Made by a program: the position numbers and the translations under genes
Notes under the pieces: model-generated
What the model saw: only the letters and a program-made list of their open reading frames with translations
The model's database searches: none
What the model was told of the DNA's origin: nothing
DNA from: Brevundimonas sp.
Lineage (GTDB): Bacteria > Pseudomonadota > Alphaproteobacteria > Caulobacterales > Caulobacteraceae
Assembly (NCBI RefSeq): GCF_013912065.1
Contig: NZ_JACESA010000021.1
Span: 1-42,135, forward strand
Length of the DNA: 42,135 nt
Reading direction: 5' to 3'
Shown: positions 2,792 to 42,112 of the stretch, piece after piece
Layout: the number at the start of each line of letters is the position of its first letter
How positions within the stretch are numbered: position 1 is the first letter of the stretch

Positions 2792-4323
2792 GCGACTTCG
2801 AGCTCCGAAACGGGGGAGAGGCGGAAGGAGAAGGCGGCGCCGCCCAGAGAACTGCGGCCAACCACCAGGATTGCGTCGTGGCTCTCGACGATCGAGCGGG
2901 TGACGGACAGGCCCAGGCCCATGCCGCCGGCCTTGGTGGTCATCATCGGCTGGAGGATGCGGTCCATCTGGTCTTCCGGAATGCCCGGGCCGTTGTCTTC
3001 GACCAGAATCTCATAACCCATGTCGGGCAGACTATGGCCGGCGAGACGGACAAGTCCGCTATCACGGCCTGTTACTGCGTCGACGGCGTTGCGGACCAGA
3101 TTGGCGATCGCCTGCTGAACCTGGATGCGATCCGCCAAGACGTGATCCTCGAAGCTCTGCACGTCGATGCTTATCGTCACTCCGGTGTCCTGATGGATCA
3201 GGTCGAAGAGCGGGCGCAGATCCTCGATCATCGACGACACCCGCTCTTCAGCCATTTCCGGGGCGCCGGTCGCGATCAGTTCGCGCATGCGGCGGATGAT
3301 GTCTCCGGCGCGAAGCAATTGGGTCTTGGCCAGGTCCAGCGCGCGTCCGGCGCTGTCGCCGATCGGTCCCGCCCGGGCGATGTCGGTCTGACCGGCGTGC
3401 AGATAGACGGTGGCGGCGGTCAGCGGCTGGTTCAGTTCGTGCGCCAGGGTCGCCGCCATCTCGCCCATGGAATTCAGCCGCCACCTTCTGCTGAGCTGGT
3501 CCATCAGGTCCCGCATACGATCGTGGGCCGCCAGAGCCTGTCGCTGGTCGCCCAGGGACAGCACGACTCGTTCCGGGTCCACGCTGCGGGACAGAAGACT
3601 GGCGTGGATCGTCAGCGGAATCATCTCGCCGTCCGGGCGGCGCACGAGCCAATAGCCAGGAGCCGGAAGGGTCAGGACGCCGCCGGAGGTCACGACCGAG
3701 AGCGTCGCCTTGTCGAAATCGGGAGCGAAGAGGCTGAAGGGGCGGGCAAGCGCGTCTTCGGGAGCGACACCGATGAGGTCGGCTGCAGGGGCCGTGATCC
3801 GAAGGATGCGGCCTTCGCCGTCGAGCGTCACGACGGGAACAGACGTCAGTATGCTGTGCAATAGGGCGGTGCGGCTGGTCAGTCGATGACAGACCTCGGC
3901 CATGACGGAAGCCACCACGACGAAAAGGATTGTGTCGGCGGCCAGGGCCATGACGCTGGATCGCGTCGTCATGAAAAGGTCGGTGACGACCGCGAGGCCG
4001 ATGGCCAGGAAAGTCGCGGGACGGTTCGCCAAAAGAGCGGTCGCCATAACCGCCCCCAGCAGGGGCATGTAGTGGACATGCTCGATATTCTGAAGTGCGG
4101 ATCTAACTAGGGCTGCAACTAACACGCAGGCGCACGCAAGAAAAACGCCGTTCCGCAAGGTCCTTGGGAAACGTCTCGGGGGCCAGTTCAGGCGAAATCC
4201 AGTAAAATCGTCTGTTCGCATCCGCATCATATTCGATCTCGCCGCCGCGAAATCATCTGGGTTATACCGCTGCCGCTTTTCTGACCCATTCTCTATAGCC
4301 GTCTTCGCTCTTTGGAAAAGCAC
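2788..4323 (-). CDS. fixL: FixL-like membrane sensor histidine kinase
   Basis: Up to 511 residues. Four hydrophobic segments lie between about residues 57 and 148, resembling a DUF4118 (KdpD-type) membrane region. A PAS-like domain spans about 155-260, followed by a FixL-class transmitter: H-box TLAHELNQP with His295, N-box QQAIANLVRNAVDAV, G1 box VEDNGPGIP and G2 box GMGLGLSV. The PAS region lacks the Arg/His-rich helix that carries the heme-ligand His in rhizobial FixL, so oxygen sensing by heme is doubtful. The start is uncertain: Met32, Met33 or Met35 (4230-4221) could serve instead, and no clear ribosome site decides. It is coupled to fixJ. Confidence 0.82.
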   Translation of the reverse strand: MLFQRAKTAIENGSEKRQRYNPDDFAAARSNMMRMRTDDFTGFRLNWPPRRFPRTLRNGVFLACACVLVAALVRSALQNIEHVHYMPLLGAVMATALLANRPATFLAIGLAVVTDLFMTTRSSVMALAADTILFVVVASVMAEVCHRLTSRTALLHSILTSVPVVTLDGEGRILRITAPAADLIGVAPEDALARPFSLFAPDFDKATLSVVTSGGVLTLPAPGYWLVRRPDGEMIPLTIHASLLSRSVDPERVVLSLGDQRQALAAHDRMRDLMDQLSRRWRLNSMGEMAATLAHELNQPLTAATVYLHAGQTDIARAGPIGDSAGRALDLAKTQLLRAGDIIRRMRELIATGAPEMAEERVSSMIEDLRPLFDLIHQDTGVTISIDVQSFEDHVLADRIQVQQAIANLVRNAVDAVTGRDSGLVRLAGHSLPDMGYEILVEDNGPGIPEDQMDRILQPMMTTKAGGMGLGLSVTRSIVESHDAILVVGRSSLGGAAFSFRLSPVSELEVA

Positions 4324-36085: not shown

Positions 36086-36370
36086 ATGACGACCCCGCCC
36101 GCCCGCGACGCCCTCTATGACGCCCTGCTGTCGATGAAGACGCGCGCCGAGATCGACGCCTTCCTGGCCGATCTCTGCACCCCGGCGGAGCTGCGCGCCT
36201 TCGCCGAGCGCTGGCAGGTGGCGCGCCTGCTGGACGCCGGGGGCAAGTCCTATCGCGAGATCGCGGCCGAGGCCCACGCCAGCCCCACCACCGTCGTCCG
36301 CGTCGCCCGTTATCTGAAAGACATGCCGCACCAGGGATACCGCATCGCCCTGGACCGGCTGAAAGCCTGA
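36086..36370 (+). CDS. TrpR/YerC-family regulator heading the his operon
   Basis: 94 residues. It is all-helical with the TrpR-superfamily helix-turn-helix: LCTPAELRAFAERWQVARLLDAGGKSYREIAAEAHASPTTVVRVARYL. YerC/YecD proteins share this plan. It is followed by hisG after 10 bases, and is the first gene of the his operon, so I infer histidine-responsive repression of the operon and of itself through the palindrome at 36055-36082. There is no ribosome site visible between the palindrome and the ATG, so the mRNA may be leaderless. Confidence 0.85.
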   Translation: MTTPPARDALYDALLSMKTRAEIDAFLADLCTPAELRAFAERWQVARLLDAGGKSYREIAAEAHASPTTVVRVARYLKDMPHQGYRIALDRLKA

Positions 36371-36380
36371 GAGTTTCCGC

Positions 36381-37262
36381 ATGAGCACCGTCCAGGGCCG
36401 GCTTCGCATCGCCGTCCAGAAATCCGGCCGTTTGGCCGACCGCAGCCTCGACCTGATCCGCGACGCGGGTCTGAAATGGGTCAAGGGCCACAACGACCTG
36501 CTGTATCGGGTCGAGAACTACCCCATCGACCTGCTGCGCGTCCGCGACGACGACATCCCCACCTTCGTGGCCGACGGCGTCTGCGACCTGGGCATCGTCG
36601 GCGAGAATGTGCTGGAGGAGGGCCGAAACGGCGGGGCCAATGCGTCTGTCGTCATGCCGCTGGGCTTTGGCCGCTGCACGCTGAAGATCGCTGCGCCCCC
36701 GACCCTGGCCTATGACGGCCCGGCCTCGCTGGAGGGCCTGCGCATCGCCACCTCCTATCCCAAGATCCTGCGTCGCTTCCTGAACGAGCGGGGGGTCAAG
36801 GCCGAGATCGTCGTCATGCGCGGCGCCGTCGAGGTCGCGCCCCGGCTGAAGCTGGCCGCCGCCATCTGCGACCTGGTCTCGACCGGAGCGACGCTGGAGG
36901 CCAACGGCCTGGGCGCCAAGGATACGGTGCTGGAAAGCCAGGCCGTCCTGATCCAGTCGCCCGTCGCCCCCGAGCCCGGCCTGCAACACCTGCTGGACAG
37001 CGTCATTGAGCGGATGTCCGGCGTCGTCTCCTCGCAGGGCGCCAAATACGTCATGCTGAACGCCCCGCGTTCGGCGCTGGACCAGATCACGGCCATCCTG
37101 CCCGGCGCAGGTTCGCCCACCGTCATGCCGCTGATGGGTCGCGACGACGCGGTCGCCGTCCACGCCGTCTGTCAGGAGGCCGTCTTCTGGGAGACGCTCG
37201 AGAAGCTGAAGGCCGCCGGCGCATCCGCCATCCTGGTCCTGCCCATCGAGAAGATGATGTGA
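36381..37262 (+). CDS. hisG: ATP phosphoribosyltransferase, long form
   Basis: 293 residues, the long form with a C-terminal regulatory domain. Blocks: RIAVQKSGRLADRSLDLIRDAGL, VCDLGIVGENVLEE, IATSYPKILRRFL, ICDLVSTGATLEANGL (PRPP loop), and the C-terminal ACT-like domain GVVSSQGAKYVMLNAPRSALDQITAILPG. It catalyses the first step of histidine synthesis and is usually inhibited by histidine; the long form needs no HisZ. Its stop overlaps the hisD start by one base. Confidence 0.96.
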   Translation: MSTVQGRLRIAVQKSGRLADRSLDLIRDAGLKWVKGHNDLLYRVENYPIDLLRVRDDDIPTFVADGVCDLGIVGENVLEEGRNGGANASVVMPLGFGRCTLKIAAPPTLAYDGPASLEGLRIATSYPKILRRFLNERGVKAEIVVMRGAVEVAPRLKLAAAICDLVSTGATLEANGLGAKDTVLESQAVLIQSPVAPEPGLQHLLDSVIERMSGVVSSQGAKYVMLNAPRSALDQITAILPGAGSPTVMPLMGRDDAVAVHAVCQEAVFWETLEKLKAAGASAILVLPIEKMM

Positions 37263-38569
37263 TGAAACTCATCGACTGGTCCTCCCTCGACGCCGCCGGC
37301 AAGACATCGGCCCTCGCCCGCCCGGCCCAGCGCACCGCCGGCGACGTCACCGAGGTCGTGCGCACCATCCTGAACGACGTGCGCGAGCGCGGCGGCGCGG
37401 CGGTCACGGACTGGTGCGTCAAGCTGGACAAGGCCCCGCCCCGCCGCATCGCCATCACGCCCGAGGTCGTGGCTGAGGCCCGCAACGCCCTGCCCCCCGG
37501 CGACGTCCGCGCCCTGCGCATGGCGGCCGAGAATGTCCGCGTCTTCCACCAGGCGACCAAGCCGGAGGATACGCCCTTCGTCGAGACCACCCCCGGCGTG
37601 CGCTCGAAACTGGCCTGGCGTCCCATCGCCTCGGCCGGCCTCTACATCCCCGGCGGCACCGCCCCCCTCTTCTCGTCCCTGCTGATGCTGGCCATCCCGG
37701 CCGGCGTCGCGGGCGTGGGCCAGCGCGTCGCCGTCACGCCTCCATCGAAGGATGGCGGCGTCCACCCCGCCATGATCCTGGCCGCCGCCGAGGCCGAGCT
37801 GGACGCCATCTGGCTGATGGGCGGGGCCCAGGCCATCGCCGCCCTGACCTTCGGCGTCGCGCTGGAGGACGGGATCATCCCCGCCTGCGACAAGCTGTTC
37901 GGCCCCGGCAACGCCTATGTGGCCGAGGCCAAGAAACAGGCCTCCGCCCTTCCCGGCGGTCCCGCCGTCGACATGCCCGCCGGCCCGTCTGAACTGATGG
38001 TCATCGTCGACCGCGACGCCGCGCCCGAGATCGCCGCCGCCGACCTGCTCAGCCAGGCCGAACACGACGCCGACGCCCAGGTCATCCTGGTCTCCACCAG
38101 CCGCGCCACCATCGACTACATCCTGTCGGAGGTGGAGGTTCAGGTCGCCACCCTGCCGCGCGAAGCCATCGCCCGCGCCTCGCTGAACGAAGCCCGCGCC
38201 ATCCTGGTCCGCGACCTCGACGCCGCCGCGGAAGTGGCCAACCTGTATGGCCCCGAACACCTGGCGATCCAGATCGACGATCCCGAACCCCTGGTCGATT
38301 CGATCAAGGCCGCCGGCGCCGTCTTCGTCGGCCGGTTCGCCGCCGAGACTCTGGGCGATTACGCCGCCGGCCCCAGCCACGTCCTGCCCACCGACGGCGG
38401 CGCCCGCACCCTGGGCGGCGTCACCACGTCCAGCTTCATGACCACCATGTCGGTCCAGCTGGTGTCCGAGGCCGGCGCCCGCGCCCTCGCCCCCATCGCC
38501 GCCCGCCTGGCCCGAATGGAGGGCCTCGAAGCCCACGCCCGCGCCGCCGACCTGAGGGCCGAAGGATGA
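37262..38569 (+). CDS. hisD: histidinol dehydrogenase
   Basis: ATG at 37262 sharing a base with the hisG stop (TGATG); 435 residues, the usual length. Blocks: YIPGGTAPLFSSLLMLAIPAGVAGV, QAIAALTFG, KLFGPGNAYVAEAKK, GPSELMVIVD, LLSQAEHDADAQ (zinc Gln/His), GPEHLAI, GPSHVLPTDGGART. It oxidises histidinol to histidine in two NAD-dependent steps. It overlaps the next gene by 4 bases (ATGA). Confidence 0.97.
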   Translation: MKLIDWSSLDAAGKTSALARPAQRTAGDVTEVVRTILNDVRERGGAAVTDWCVKLDKAPPRRIAITPEVVAEARNALPPGDVRALRMAAENVRVFHQATKPEDTPFVETTPGVRSKLAWRPIASAGLYIPGGTAPLFSSLLMLAIPAGVAGVGQRVAVTPPSKDGGVHPAMILAAAEAELDAIWLMGGAQAIAALTFGVALEDGIIPACDKLFGPGNAYVAEAKKQASALPGGPAVDMPAGPSELMVIVDRDAAPEIAAADLLSQAEHDADAQVILVSTSRATIDYILSEVEVQVATLPREAIARASLNEARAILVRDLDAAAEVANLYGPEHLAIQIDDPEPLVDSIKAAGAVFVGRFAAETLGDYAAGPSHVLPTDGGARTLGGVTTSSFMTTMSVQLVSEAGARALAPIAARLARMEGLEAHARAADLRAEG

Positions 38570-39990
38570 CCCTGCCCGCCCCCTATCCTCCGCTGGTCTC
38601 CGGCGGCGAAGGCCTGGACCGCTATCCTGGCGACGCGTCTGCCCTGGCCGCTCGCATGGCCGCGATCTACGCCGTGCCTACCGACCAGGTCCTTCCGGTG
38701 CGCGGCCTGACCCACGGGCTGGAACTGGCCTATCGCCTCGCCGCCCGCGACGGCGGCTCGGTCGAGGCGCCCAAGGCCGAACCTTACGACAGTCTGGCCG
38801 CCATCTATCCGGCCAAGGGCGAACCCGCCGTCGTCGTCATCCGCGCCCTCGGCTCGCCCGAGGCCGTGGCCGAAATGGCCGCCCGCGTCGCCCCCGCCCT
38901 GCTGGTGGTGGACGAAGGCCTGATCGAGTTTTCCGACAGCGTCTCGGCCGCCACCGTCGTCGCCGACCAGCCGAACCTGGTCGTGCTGCGCAGCCTGTCC
39001 CTGGCCTATGGTCTGGCCGGCGCCCGCGTCGGCGCGGCCATCGCCCAGGCCCCGACCCTGGCCCGCCTCGCCTCGGTGCTGGAGCCCTACGCCCTGCCCG
39101 AACCCCTGGTGCGGCTGGCGCAACAGGCGCTCGACCCGTCGCGGATGATCGAGACCGCCGAGCGGATCGCCTCGGTCCGGCGCGAGCGCGAGCGGATCGC
39201 CCGCGAACTGGGCCGCGAAATGACGGTCGAGCCCGGCGTCGGCCCGATCCTCATGGTCCGGCCGCAAGACCCCGCCGCCGCCCTGGCCGGGCTTATGGCC
39301 TATGGCGTCGAGGCCGACCTGTCCGGCGACCGGCTGCGCCTGCCCGTCTCGATCAAGCCCGAGGTCAACGACCGGCTGCTGGCCGCCTTCGGCCTGACCC
39401 CCGCCAAGCGCCGCCCGTCCCGCGTCGGCCAGGCCGTCCGCGACACGAAAGAGACCCGCATCGTCTGCGCCGTCGATCTGGACGCGCCCGGTCCGATCAA
39501 GATCGAGACCGGCGTCGGCTTCTTCGATCACATGCTGGAGCAGATCGCGGCCCACGGCGGCTTCTCCCTGCGGCTCCAGTGCGAGGGCGACCTGCACACC
39601 GATCCGCACCACACGATCGAGGACAGCGCCATCGCCCTGGGCCAGGCGCTGAAACAGGCGCTGGGCGAACGTAGAGGCATCGCCCGCTACGGCTTCGTCC
39701 TGCCGATGGACGAGGCCAATGCGACCGTCTCCATCGACCTGTCCGGCCGCCCCTATCCGCTGTTCGAGGGCACGTTCGACACCCCCTATATCGGCGACTA
39801 TCGCACCGACCTGACGGCCCACGTCTTCCGTTCCCTGGCCGAGGCCATGGGCGCCGCCGTCCACATCTCGGTCACCGGCCAGGACGACCACCACAAGACC
39901 GAGGCCGTCTACAAGGGCTTCGGCCGCGCCCTGCGCCAGGCCATCCGGGTCGAGGGCGACGCCGTGCCGTCCACGAAGGGGGTGCTGTGA
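38566..39990 (+). CDS. hisB: fusion: degenerate HisC-like aminotransferase + HisB (IGP dehydratase)
   Basis: 474 residues in one frame. Residues about 1-278 align by eye with histidinol-phosphate aminotransferase (YPG, RGLTHGLELAYRL, VVDEGLIEF, VLRSLSLAYGLAGARVG, LRLPV). The PLP lysine (SLSK in HisC) is Leu146; the NPNNPTG block is missing and the DEAY Tyr is Leu. Residues about 290-474 are a complete imidazoleglycerol-phosphate dehydratase with GVGFFDHMLEQIAAHGG, HHTIED (348-353) and DDHHKTEAVYKGFGRAL (440-456), the Mn-binding motifs. No start codon lies in the linker; the nearest in-frame is Met244. A true hisC must be elsewhere. Confidence 0.9.
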   Translation: MTLPAPYPPLVSGGEGLDRYPGDASALAARMAAIYAVPTDQVLPVRGLTHGLELAYRLAARDGGSVEAPKAEPYDSLAAIYPAKGEPAVVVIRALGSPEAVAEMAARVAPALLVVDEGLIEFSDSVSAATVVADQPNLVVLRSLSLAYGLAGARVGAAIAQAPTLARLASVLEPYALPEPLVRLAQQALDPSRMIETAERIASVRRERERIARELGREMTVEPGVGPILMVRPQDPAAALAGLMAYGVEADLSGDRLRLPVSIKPEVNDRLLAAFGLTPAKRRPSRVGQAVRDTKETRIVCAVDLDAPGPIKIETGVGFFDHMLEQIAAHGGFSLRLQCEGDLHTDPHHTIEDSAIALGQALKQALGERRGIARYGFVLPMDEANATVSIDLSGRPYPLFEGTFDTPYIGDYRTDLTAHVFRSLAEAMGAAVHISVTGQDDHHKTEAVYKGFGRALRQAIRVEGDAVPSTKGVL

Positions 39991-40020: not shown

Positions 40021-40623
40021 ATGAGCGAAGTCGCCATCCTGTCCTATGGCGCCGGCAATGTCGCCTCGGTCCAGTTCGCGCTGGAGCGTCTGGGCGCCAC
40101 GGTCCGCCTGACCGACGATCCCGCCGTGATCGCCGAGGCCGAACGGGTCATCCTGCCCGGCGTGGGCGCCGCCGGCTACGCGATGAGCCGACTGTCGGAC
40201 CTGGGCCTGGTCGAGCCGATCCGCGCCTTTCCCCGCCCCCTGCTGGGCGTCTGCCTGGGCCAGCAGCTGCTGTTCGAGCGCAGCGAGGAGGGCGACGGGG
40301 TCGGCCTGCTGGGCTTCATCCCCGGCGCCGTGACCCGGCTCGAACCGGCCGAGGCCCTGCCCGTGCCCCACATGGGCTGGAGCCGGCTGACGCGCGACCG
40401 CGACGACCCGCTGCTGGAGGGGGTCGTGGACGGCGCCTACGCCTATTTCGTCCACGGCTTCGTCTGTCCCGACGGTCCCGCCACCCTGGCCCGCGCCGAC
40501 TACGGCGGCCCGGTCCCCGCCGTGGTGCGGTCGGGCAATCGTTGGGGCTGCCAGTTCCACCCCGAACGCTCGGCCGAGGCCGGGGCGACCATCCTCAAGA
40601 ACTTCCTGGATCTTCCATGCTGA
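40021..40623 (+). CDS. hisH: imidazole glycerol phosphate synthase, glutaminase subunit
   Basis: ATG at 40021 chosen for the adjacent GGGGGAGGA; 200 residues. Class I amidotransferase triad: Cys in LLGVCLGQQLLFE, His and Glu in FHPERSAEAG. VPHMGWSRL and YAYFVHGF are HisH features. It supplies ammonia from glutamine to HisF. Its stop overlaps hisA by 7 bases. Confidence 0.96.
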   Translation: MSEVAILSYGAGNVASVQFALERLGATVRLTDDPAVIAEAERVILPGVGAAGYAMSRLSDLGLVEPIRAFPRPLLGVCLGQQLLFERSEEGDGVGLLGFIPGAVTRLEPAEALPVPHMGWSRLTRDRDDPLLEGVVDGAYAYFVHGFVCPDGPATLARADYGGPVPAVVRSGNRWGCQFHPERSAEAGATILKNFLDLPC

Positions 40624-41348
40624 TCTACCCCGCCATCGACCTGAAGGACGGCGTCTGCGTGCGCCTGATGCACGGCCGGTTCGACCAGGTGACCCGTTAT
40701 GACGAACAGCCCGCGGCCCGCCTGACCGCCTTCGCGACCGAGGGCGCCGAATGGATTCACGTCGTCGATCTGGACGGCGCCGAGGCCGGCCAGGCCATGC
40801 AGCACGCCCTGATCGGCGACCTGACCCAGGCCCTCGACGTCAAGATCCAGTCCGGCGGCGGCGTCCGCGGCGCCAATGACGTGGCCAAACTGCTGGAGGC
40901 CGGTGTGTCCCGCGTCGTCGTCGGCTCCCTGGCCGTGACCCAGCCCAACGACGTGGCCGCCTGGCTCAAGGGTTTCGGCCCGGAACAGATCACCCTGGCC
41001 CTGGACGTCAAGATCGAGGACGGCGTCCCCGTCCCCGCCCTAAAGGGCTGGACCCAGTCGTCGGGCGTCACGCTGTGGGAGGCGCTGGATCGCTATCCGA
41101 AGGGAACGGCCAAACACCTACTGGTCACCGACGTCGGTCGCGACGGCGCCATGACCGGCCCCAATCTGGAACTGCTGGCCGAGATCCGCCGCCGCCGTCC
41201 CGACCTGGTGCTCCAGGCCTCGGGCGGGGTCTCGTCGCTGGACGACATCACGGCGGTCAAGTCGCTGGGCTGCAACGGCGCCATCGTCGGCCGCGCCCTG
41301 TACGAAAACCGCTTCACCCTGCCCGAAGCCATAGCGACGGCGGCATGA
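40617..41348 (+). CDS. hisA: phosphoribosylformimino-5-aminoimidazole carboxamide ribotide isomerase
   Basis: ATG at 40617; 243 residues, a TIM barrel with IYPAIDLKDGVCVRLMHG (catalytic Asp in the first strand), VVDLDGA, IQSGGGVR, VVGSLAV, LVTDVGRDGAMTGPN (second catalytic Asp) and ASGGVSS, GAIVGRALYE. It performs the Amadori isomerisation before HisF/HisH. It overlaps hisH by 7 bases and hisF by 4. Confidence 0.97.
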   Translation: MLIYPAIDLKDGVCVRLMHGRFDQVTRYDEQPAARLTAFATEGAEWIHVVDLDGAEAGQAMQHALIGDLTQALDVKIQSGGGVRGANDVAKLLEAGVSRVVVGSLAVTQPNDVAAWLKGFGPEQITLALDVKIEDGVPVPALKGWTQSSGVTLWEALDRYPKGTAKHLLVTDVGRDGAMTGPNLELLAEIRRRRPDLVLQASGGVSSLDDITAVKSLGCNGAIVGRALYENRFTLPEAIATAA

Positions 41349-42112
41349 CGGCGCGCCGTATAGTCCCCTGCCTGGACGTCAAGGACGGCCGGGTGGTCAA
41401 GGGCGTGAAGTTCGTCGGCCATACAGACATGGGCGACGCGGCGGACCTTGCCGCCCGTTATCGCGACGCGGGCGCCGACGAACTGGTCTTCTACGACATC
41501 GCGGCCAGCCCCGAGGGCCGGACCCTGGACTATGGCTGGATCAGGGACATCGCCCGCCTGCTCGACATCCCCTTCTGCGTGGCCGGCGGCATTCGCAGCG
41601 TCGATCAGGCCGCGCGCTGTCTCGACCACGGCGCGGACAAGGTGTCGATCAACTCCCCCGCCCTGGAACGCCCCGACCTGATCGCCGAAATGGCGGAACG
41701 CCTGGGCAGCCAGTGCGTCGTCGTCGGCGTCGACAGCCGGATGGAGGACGGCGAATGGGTCGTCCACAAATACACCGGCGACCCCGACGCGCGCCGCCGC
41801 GCGGGCAAACGCACACTGGATTGGCTGGACCAGGCCCAGGCCCTCGGCGCCGGCGAGATCGTGCTGAACTGCATCGACCAGGACGGCGTTCGACGCGGCT
41901 ACGACCTCGAACAACTGTCCGCCGCCCGCGCGCGCCTGACCATCCCCCTGATCGCGTCCGGCGGCGCCGGCGCGCCCGAGCATTTCCGAGACGTCTTCCA
42001 CCAGGCCGACGTCTCAGGCGCCCTGGCCGCCAGCGTCTTCCACACCGGCGCCATCGCCATTCCTGACCTGAAGGCCTATCTCGCGGGCGAAGGCCTGGAG
42101 ATGAGATTGTGA
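41345..42112 (+). CDS. hisF: imidazole glycerol phosphate synthase, cyclase subunit
   Basis: ATG at 41345 overlapping the hisA stop; 255 residues. TIM barrel with [16 protein letters not shown] (catalytic Asp), [40 protein letters not shown], and the second phosphate site [12 protein letters not shown]. The usual NCIDQDG Asp motif is present ([16 protein letters not shown]). It forms imidazole glycerol phosphate and AICAR using ammonia from HisH. It is complete; 23 bases follow to the edge. Confidence 0.97.

Follow-up and report, generated by a model that had tools for sequence, protein, structure and literature searches.

The N-terminal half of the fused HisB of Brevundimonas is a HisC-derived pseudoenzyme, probably the remnant of a bifunctional HisC-HisB protein

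HisB (imidazoleglycerol-phosphate dehydratase, IGPD) and HisC catalyze consecutive steps of histidine synthesis, steps 6 and 7 (PMC10978614). HisB thus acts one step upstream of HisC, and not two as stated in the original prediction for the locus described here. In the E. coli hisNB product, a histidinol-phosphatase-IGPD protein, HisB forms the C-terminal half of the chain, as it does in the present fusion, but its partner is a phosphatase and not HisC (PMC1963479). No match to a HAD-type phosphatase was found in residues 1-285 of the present protein in searches of the Pfam and NCBIfam families. Searches of the open-licence PMC literature brought up no report of a protein in which HisC and HisB are fused. 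The string "hisC" does not occur in the main text of PMC1963479 or PMC10138114. In the relevant passages of PMC6432763 and PMC7696456 "hisC-hisB" denotes the gene order in Corynebacterium operons, and those of PMC6522883 mention HisC and a different pseudoenzyme separately.

Intact HisC-HisB fusions are nevertheless encoded in genomes of Caulobacterales, Sphingomonadales and SAR116-type Alphaproteobacteria (for example L268, L080/L184, L186 and L216). They consist of the same halves in the same order as the fusion described here and, in L268 and in Peiella (L080), occupy the same place in the his operon, but unlike it they possess the catalytic residues of HisC. That such intact fusions exist and explain the origin of the protein is what this analysis adds to the claim that prompted it.

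The window, the whole stretch of 42,135 nucleotides of Brevundimonas sp. contig NZ_JACESA010000021.1 that was analyzed, carries a his operon with the gene order hisG-hisD-[pseudo-hisC-hisB]-hisH-hisA-hisF. The contig ends at 42135, and the sequence past hisF lies outside the view.

36381..37262, + strand: hisG
37259..38569, + strand: hisD, the upstream partner of the ATGA overlap
38566..39990, + strand: fused pseudo-hisC-hisB gene of 474 codons and a stop, whose ATG start overlaps the end of hisD in the sequence ATGA
38566..39417, + strand: pseudo-HisC domain, residues 1-284
39418..39987, + strand: HisB half (predicted imidazoleglycerol-phosphate dehydratase), residues 285-474
40021..40623, + strand: hisH, named by motif only
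40617..41348, + strand: hisA, named by motif only
41345..42112, + strand: hisF, named by motif only

Just 5' of hisG, a gene of the YerC/YecD TrpR family (36086-36370, + strand; TIGR02531, 65 bits) matches HisR. HisR has been reported in some Caulobacterales, and in most Proteobacteria possessing it the gene for HisR comes first in the his operon (PMC9413887).

The HisB half has the conserved features of its family. Residues 315-456 match the Pfam family IGPD (PF00475) with an E-value of 2.7e-58 and a score of 196.6 bits against a cut-off of 27, and the best NCBIfam HisB score of the fusion is that of the HisB part of the hisNB model. The His and Glu metal motifs, which the original prediction had described as complete, are indeed so: H348, H349, E352, H442, H443 and E446 occupy invariant columns in 22 aligned fusions. 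A second hisB gene was looked for in the genome and was not found, in agreement with the proposal that HisB exists here only as a fusion. The HisB half of 38566-39990 is the only HisB of the genome, and its dehydratase activity is predicted. As had also been noted, it lacks a start codon of its own: from Met244 to Met323 the window contains neither ATG nor GTG nor TTG in frame.

The N-terminal half resembles HisC along its whole length. The original prediction had aligned about 280 residues with HisC by eye, and a search of residues 1-285 against the aminotransferase class I/II family bears this out, with Aminotran_1_2 matched at 3.5e-14 (residues 99-236, at 1e-13 when the whole protein is used). 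The HisC model TIGR01141 matches residues 99-232 of the same segment (9.5e-28, 97.1 bits), below its cut-off of 276.55. When profiles were compared, the degenerate domains, here called dead, aligned with the intact fused HisC over 276 columns (probability 100, E 1.1e-54), showing that residues ~1-280 are HisC-derived and collinear with HisC, which speaks against an unrelated fold. The best sequence matches in the PDB, 1fg3 (E. coli HisC) and 7szp, are both HisC. Judged by these alignments, the N-terminal half of the fusion is a descendant of HisC.

The residues that distinguish this half from HisC were located using the E. coli HisC numbering, which was checked on the 1fg3 sequence.

38713..38715, + strand: His50 codon (CAC), replacing E. 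coli Glu86; His in 92/97 dead domains, Glu or Asp in 40/40 intact
38860..39273, + strand: best kept HisC core, residues 99-236, with the lowest omega of the domain stretches measured
38920..38922, + strand: Leu119 codon, replacing the DEAY tyrosine (E. coli Tyr187)
39001..39003, + strand: Leu146 codon, replacing the PLP lysine (E. coli Lys214)
39082..39084, + strand: Glu173 codon, at the position of E. coli Pro241; Glu in 94/97 dead domains, Pro (30) or Ala (10) in 40 intact
39244..39246, + strand: Pro227 codon, replacing HisC Asn298; Pro in 96/97 dead domains, Asn in 40/40 intact
39337..39339, + strand: Arg258 codon (E. coli Arg335); kept in 56/57 sequences of the genus and in 0/24 of the sister genus g14

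In E. coli HisC, Lys214 is taken by us to bind PLP, and the roles of Asn157, Tyr187 and the other residues considered here are likewise assumed. In the window protein Lys214 is replaced by Leu146 and Tyr187 by Leu119, Asn157 is deleted, Asp85-Glu86 has become Thr49-His50, and Tyr20 and Arg322 have no counterpart. The alignment therefore agrees with the earlier reading that the lysine is Leu146, that the NNPTG block is gone and that the DEAY tyrosine is a leucine. Asp184 (D116), Arg222 (R154), Arg335 (R258) and Tyr55 (Y20) are retained. The combined loss of the PLP lysine, Asn157 and the phosphate cup makes ordinary PLP aminotransferase activity impossible, as had been predicted. No lysine elsewhere is conserved at a level of at least 85% among 97 dead domains, which argues against a substitute in the active site.

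The counts for dead and intact domains should be read with the knowledge that the two sets were sorted partly by such catalytic features, with the in-between L122 set aside. Lys214 and Arg322 are present in 40/40 intact and 0/97 dead domains, and Asn157 in 39/40 (L117 lacks it) and 0/97. All nine checked residues are found in 39 of the 40 intact domains. The dead domains retain Asp184 in 96/97, Arg222 in 81/97, Arg335 in 70/97 and Tyr187 in 24/97 cases. The loss of Tyr20 is weak evidence, because this residue is a tyrosine in just 25 of the 40 intact fusions. The dead domains also have a signature of their own, counted without L122 (Lys to Ser), L126 (truncated by a contig end) and L079 (frameshift): it comprises His50, which adjoins the old phosphate cup, Glu173 and Pro227, and residues Arg200, Arg210 and Asn268 are invariant across the set of 97.

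The dead domain evolves under relaxed, yet clearly purifying, selection. Among 57 sequences of the genus, the median omega over the 1094 of 1596 pairs that passed a dS filter is 0.32 for residues 1-284 and 0.16 for HisB; within the domain it is 0.25 for residues 99-236, 0.47 for residues 61-98 and 0.44 for residues 237-284. Taking 27 disjoint pairs gives medians of 0.23 for residues 1-284, 0.185 for residues 99-236 and 0.075 for HisB. Every one of these 27 pairs has an omega of less than 0.5 for residues 1-284, and in 26 this value exceeds that of HisB. The ratio of N-half to HisB divergence is 3.2-3.4 in dead fusions compared with 1.8-2.1 in intact ones. With its catalytic residues lost and purifying selection persisting, the N-terminal half is, as far as its sequence can tell, a pseudoenzyme with a putative non-catalytic function.

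The survey of Caulobacterales hisB genes showed the fusion to be widespread. The genus of the window accounts for 73 of the 299 genomes of the family, and 65 of the 73 have the full-length fusion; in the 57 of these 65 fusions that were read, the Lys214 position is occupied by Leu (54) or Met (3). The remaining eight genomes comprise one with a frameshifted fusion (G252), one with an intact HisC-HisB (G092, Peiella sedimenti) and six without HisB. The frameshift of G252 (L079, ~3025-3045) lies near a run of G in a single-contig genome and is either a sequencing error or a fresh lesion. Five near-complete genomes of the genus (G083, G174, G210, G270 and G294) keep HisC and have no match to HisB, HisD or HisG in the family search; these are probable natural histidine auxotrophs. 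In G135 the missing HisB may reflect an assembly gap, because hisD is at a contig end.

The fusion is present in 24 of the 25 genomes of the sister genus g14; all 24 have Phe or Tyr at the Lys214 position, and 23 of them keep the DEAY tyrosine. G009 (g9) has a shorter fusion. The free HisBs of other genera of the family (six read, five in the tree) are of a different type, situated across a long branch. The dead fusion occurs in two more families of the order. When 398 genomes of the order were surveyed with the Peiella fusion as the query, the matches listed included full-length fusions from families f4 and f5, whereas dead fusions came from f1, f3 and f5. In part of f4 only ~200 residues are left, which match the C-terminal part of HisC at a probability of 93-95. 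Some members of f3 and f4 have HisD-HisB fusions in which no HisC half was found (L266, L157, L160, L165, L170 and L171); in L266 (3237-5141) Pfam Histidinol_dh matches residues 29-431 and IGPD residues 475-616. The HisD-HisB fusions apparently arose separately, as the two host families are apart in the HisB tree. L122 (G377) is a full-length HisC-HisB in which Lys214 is replaced by Ser and several other sites are lost, with a standalone hisC 2.7 kb away; it looks like an early stage of loss.

Outside the order, the best 12 matches from a survey of 385 genomes of the class were fetched. Eight are full-length fusions, each with the lysine in place; of the other four, L276 is cut, L278 has a small remnant and two have no visible HisC half. 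Named intact fusions belong to Sphingomonas, Sphingomicrobium, Sphingosinicella, Sphingorhabdus and SAR116-type records. L278 (G688, of another order) places a small-remnant fusion, judged by eye, beyond the order of the window.

A degenerate HisC half is almost always accompanied by a standalone HisC. The genome of the window has one HisC over the cut-off, at G000:C18:4505-5551 on a different contig from the fusion, so that the separate intact hisC asked for by the original prediction is present. Of the 98 genomes whose HisC half is dead, eroded or deleted (91 fetched; G424, G333, G341, G380, G596, G584 and G352 assigned by match extent alone), 96 possess a standalone HisC that scores over the cut-off. 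The two exceptions are G530, which is 65% complete, and G373, with 275.6 bits against 276.55. The standalone hisC is located 2.7 kb past the fusion in 21/23 genomes of f3, in 3/3 of f5 (including G373) and in G009, and on another contig in G411 and G478. In the 43 Caulobacterales genomes with an intact fusion, the fusion is the sole HisC over the cut-off in 33 and both are present in 10; 20 of the 43 were read residue by residue, and 23 were assigned by a full-length match and a score over the cut-off. Because the genomes are related, the association represents far fewer independent events than these counts suggest. For the genus of the window, the HisC search covered 17 of the 66 genomes having a dead fusion. 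L122 was counted as degenerate in this census, the frames of L142, L148 and L153 are truncated or interrupted by contig ends or Ns, and G157 was left out (fusion unassembled, HisC below the cut-off).

The N-half tree unites the 29 dead rows in a single clade (100/99, stem 0.96), which lies within the intact fused HisC and has the in-between L122 as its sister (92/76). In the HisB tree of 92 rows the dead fusions are not all together, g14 being placed with intact f5 fusions (95/82). However, constraining this tree to a single dead clade is not rejected (AU p 0.373). A single loss for the dead clade is therefore favored but not proven, and there may have been more than one. Some dead rows are long branches. 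The intact fusion of Peiella sedimenti (G092) was considered as a missing link of vertical descent and rejected: its HisC half groups with Sphingomonadales (97/90) and the genome also has a standalone HisC, so that its operon was more likely replaced than ancestral.

The homology, the catalytic loss, the nesting in the N-half tree, the association with a standalone HisC and the purifying selection are best explained, with a probability of about 0.6, if the dead half is the remnant of a bifunctional HisC-HisB protein that has been kept as the structural and translational front of HisB. The ancestral his operon would have carried a working fusion performing steps 7 and 6. With step 7 taken over by a standalone HisC, the PLP lysine and the greater part of the active site of the fused half would have disappeared, probably in a single event common to all of the dead clade. 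Two reasons would account for the retention of this half: HisB, as the C-terminal part of the chain, would depend on it for translation, being coupled to hisD by the ATGA overlap and lacking a separate start in the window, and the domain, presumably still folded, would now be a structural part, most likely one for folding or oligomer building. Such a structural need is not universal, since the HisD-HisB fusions show that HisB can do without the HisC remnant. The conservation of His50, Glu173 and Pro227 exceeds what a passive scaffold strictly requires and counts against this explanation, as do the 10 of 43 intact-fusion genomes that have a second HisC without visible loss.

Retention would also follow if the domain were useless and were held by a ratchet, HisB having neither a start nor a ribosome site and deletions having to keep the frame. 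Besides the ATGA overlap with hisD, this fits the lack of an in-frame ATG at residues 250-317 in 51 of 57 sequences of the genus, the trimming of the domain elsewhere to ~200 residues or its in-frame deletion to give HisD-HisB, and the finding of no free HisB of ~200 amino acids among the read frames of the fused clade that are uncut by a contig end. However, a GTG codon at residue 291 in 39 of the 57 could be a start, and omega below 0.5 in 27/27 pairs, together with His50 in 92/97 and Pro227 in 96/97, is more than an open frame needs; a useless domain is conceivable but doubtful. The same conservation might indicate that the old PLP site has been rebuilt around His50, with Pro227 and Glu173, to control or assemble HisB, the pocket binding a new ligand such as a pathway metabolite or the domain pairing with the standalone HisC to join steps 6 and 7. 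The clade-wide replacement of Glu86 by His50, Asn298 by Pro227 and Pro241 by Glu173, the purifying selection, the nearly constant presence of a standalone HisC and the retention of Asp116 (96/97), Arg222 (81/97) and Arg335 (70/97) would agree with such a regulatory or docking role. Nevertheless it appears unlikely: Lys214, Asn157 and Arg322 are lost in 97/97, the contacts that are kept differ between lineages, some lineages have deleted the domain, and both ligand and docking partner are hypothetical. PLP catalysis by another lysine, or a misassembly or sequencing artifact, has nothing in its favor beyond the retained Asp116 and Arg154 and is scarcely credible, given that the dead set has no conserved lysine, that the phosphate cup and Asn157 are gone and Tyr187 is gone in 73/97, and that the same state is seen in 57/57 sequences of the genus read from separate genomes.

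The original prediction further proposed that the arginine binding phosphate near the C-terminus is retained, that the domain may bind a histidinol-phosphate-like ligand, and that it serves feedback sensing or assembly. The arginine is kept as Arg258 in all but one of the sequences of the window genus, but is Leu or Ile in 24/24 of g14. Such a ligand may conceivably still be bound in the window genus, where Tyr55, Arg222 and Arg335 are kept, but binding is not supported across the family, Arg222 being Pro in 12/12 of f3 and Arg322 absent in 97/97 dead domains. Sensing of histidinol phosphate is not favored and seems poorly supported, given that the dead clade as a whole does not retain the contact residues; the dead half is excluded as a PLP catalyst and is probably not a sensor. 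The other part of the proposal, a possible assembly or structural role, is favored by the purifying selection and the clade-wide signature.

A single order thus holds the working fusion, the dead but conserved half, the small remnant and the full loss with HisD-HisB. Such stages allow a direct test of why a dead enzyme domain is kept, and of whether loss of the separate start of the second enzyme can make a fusion irreversible.
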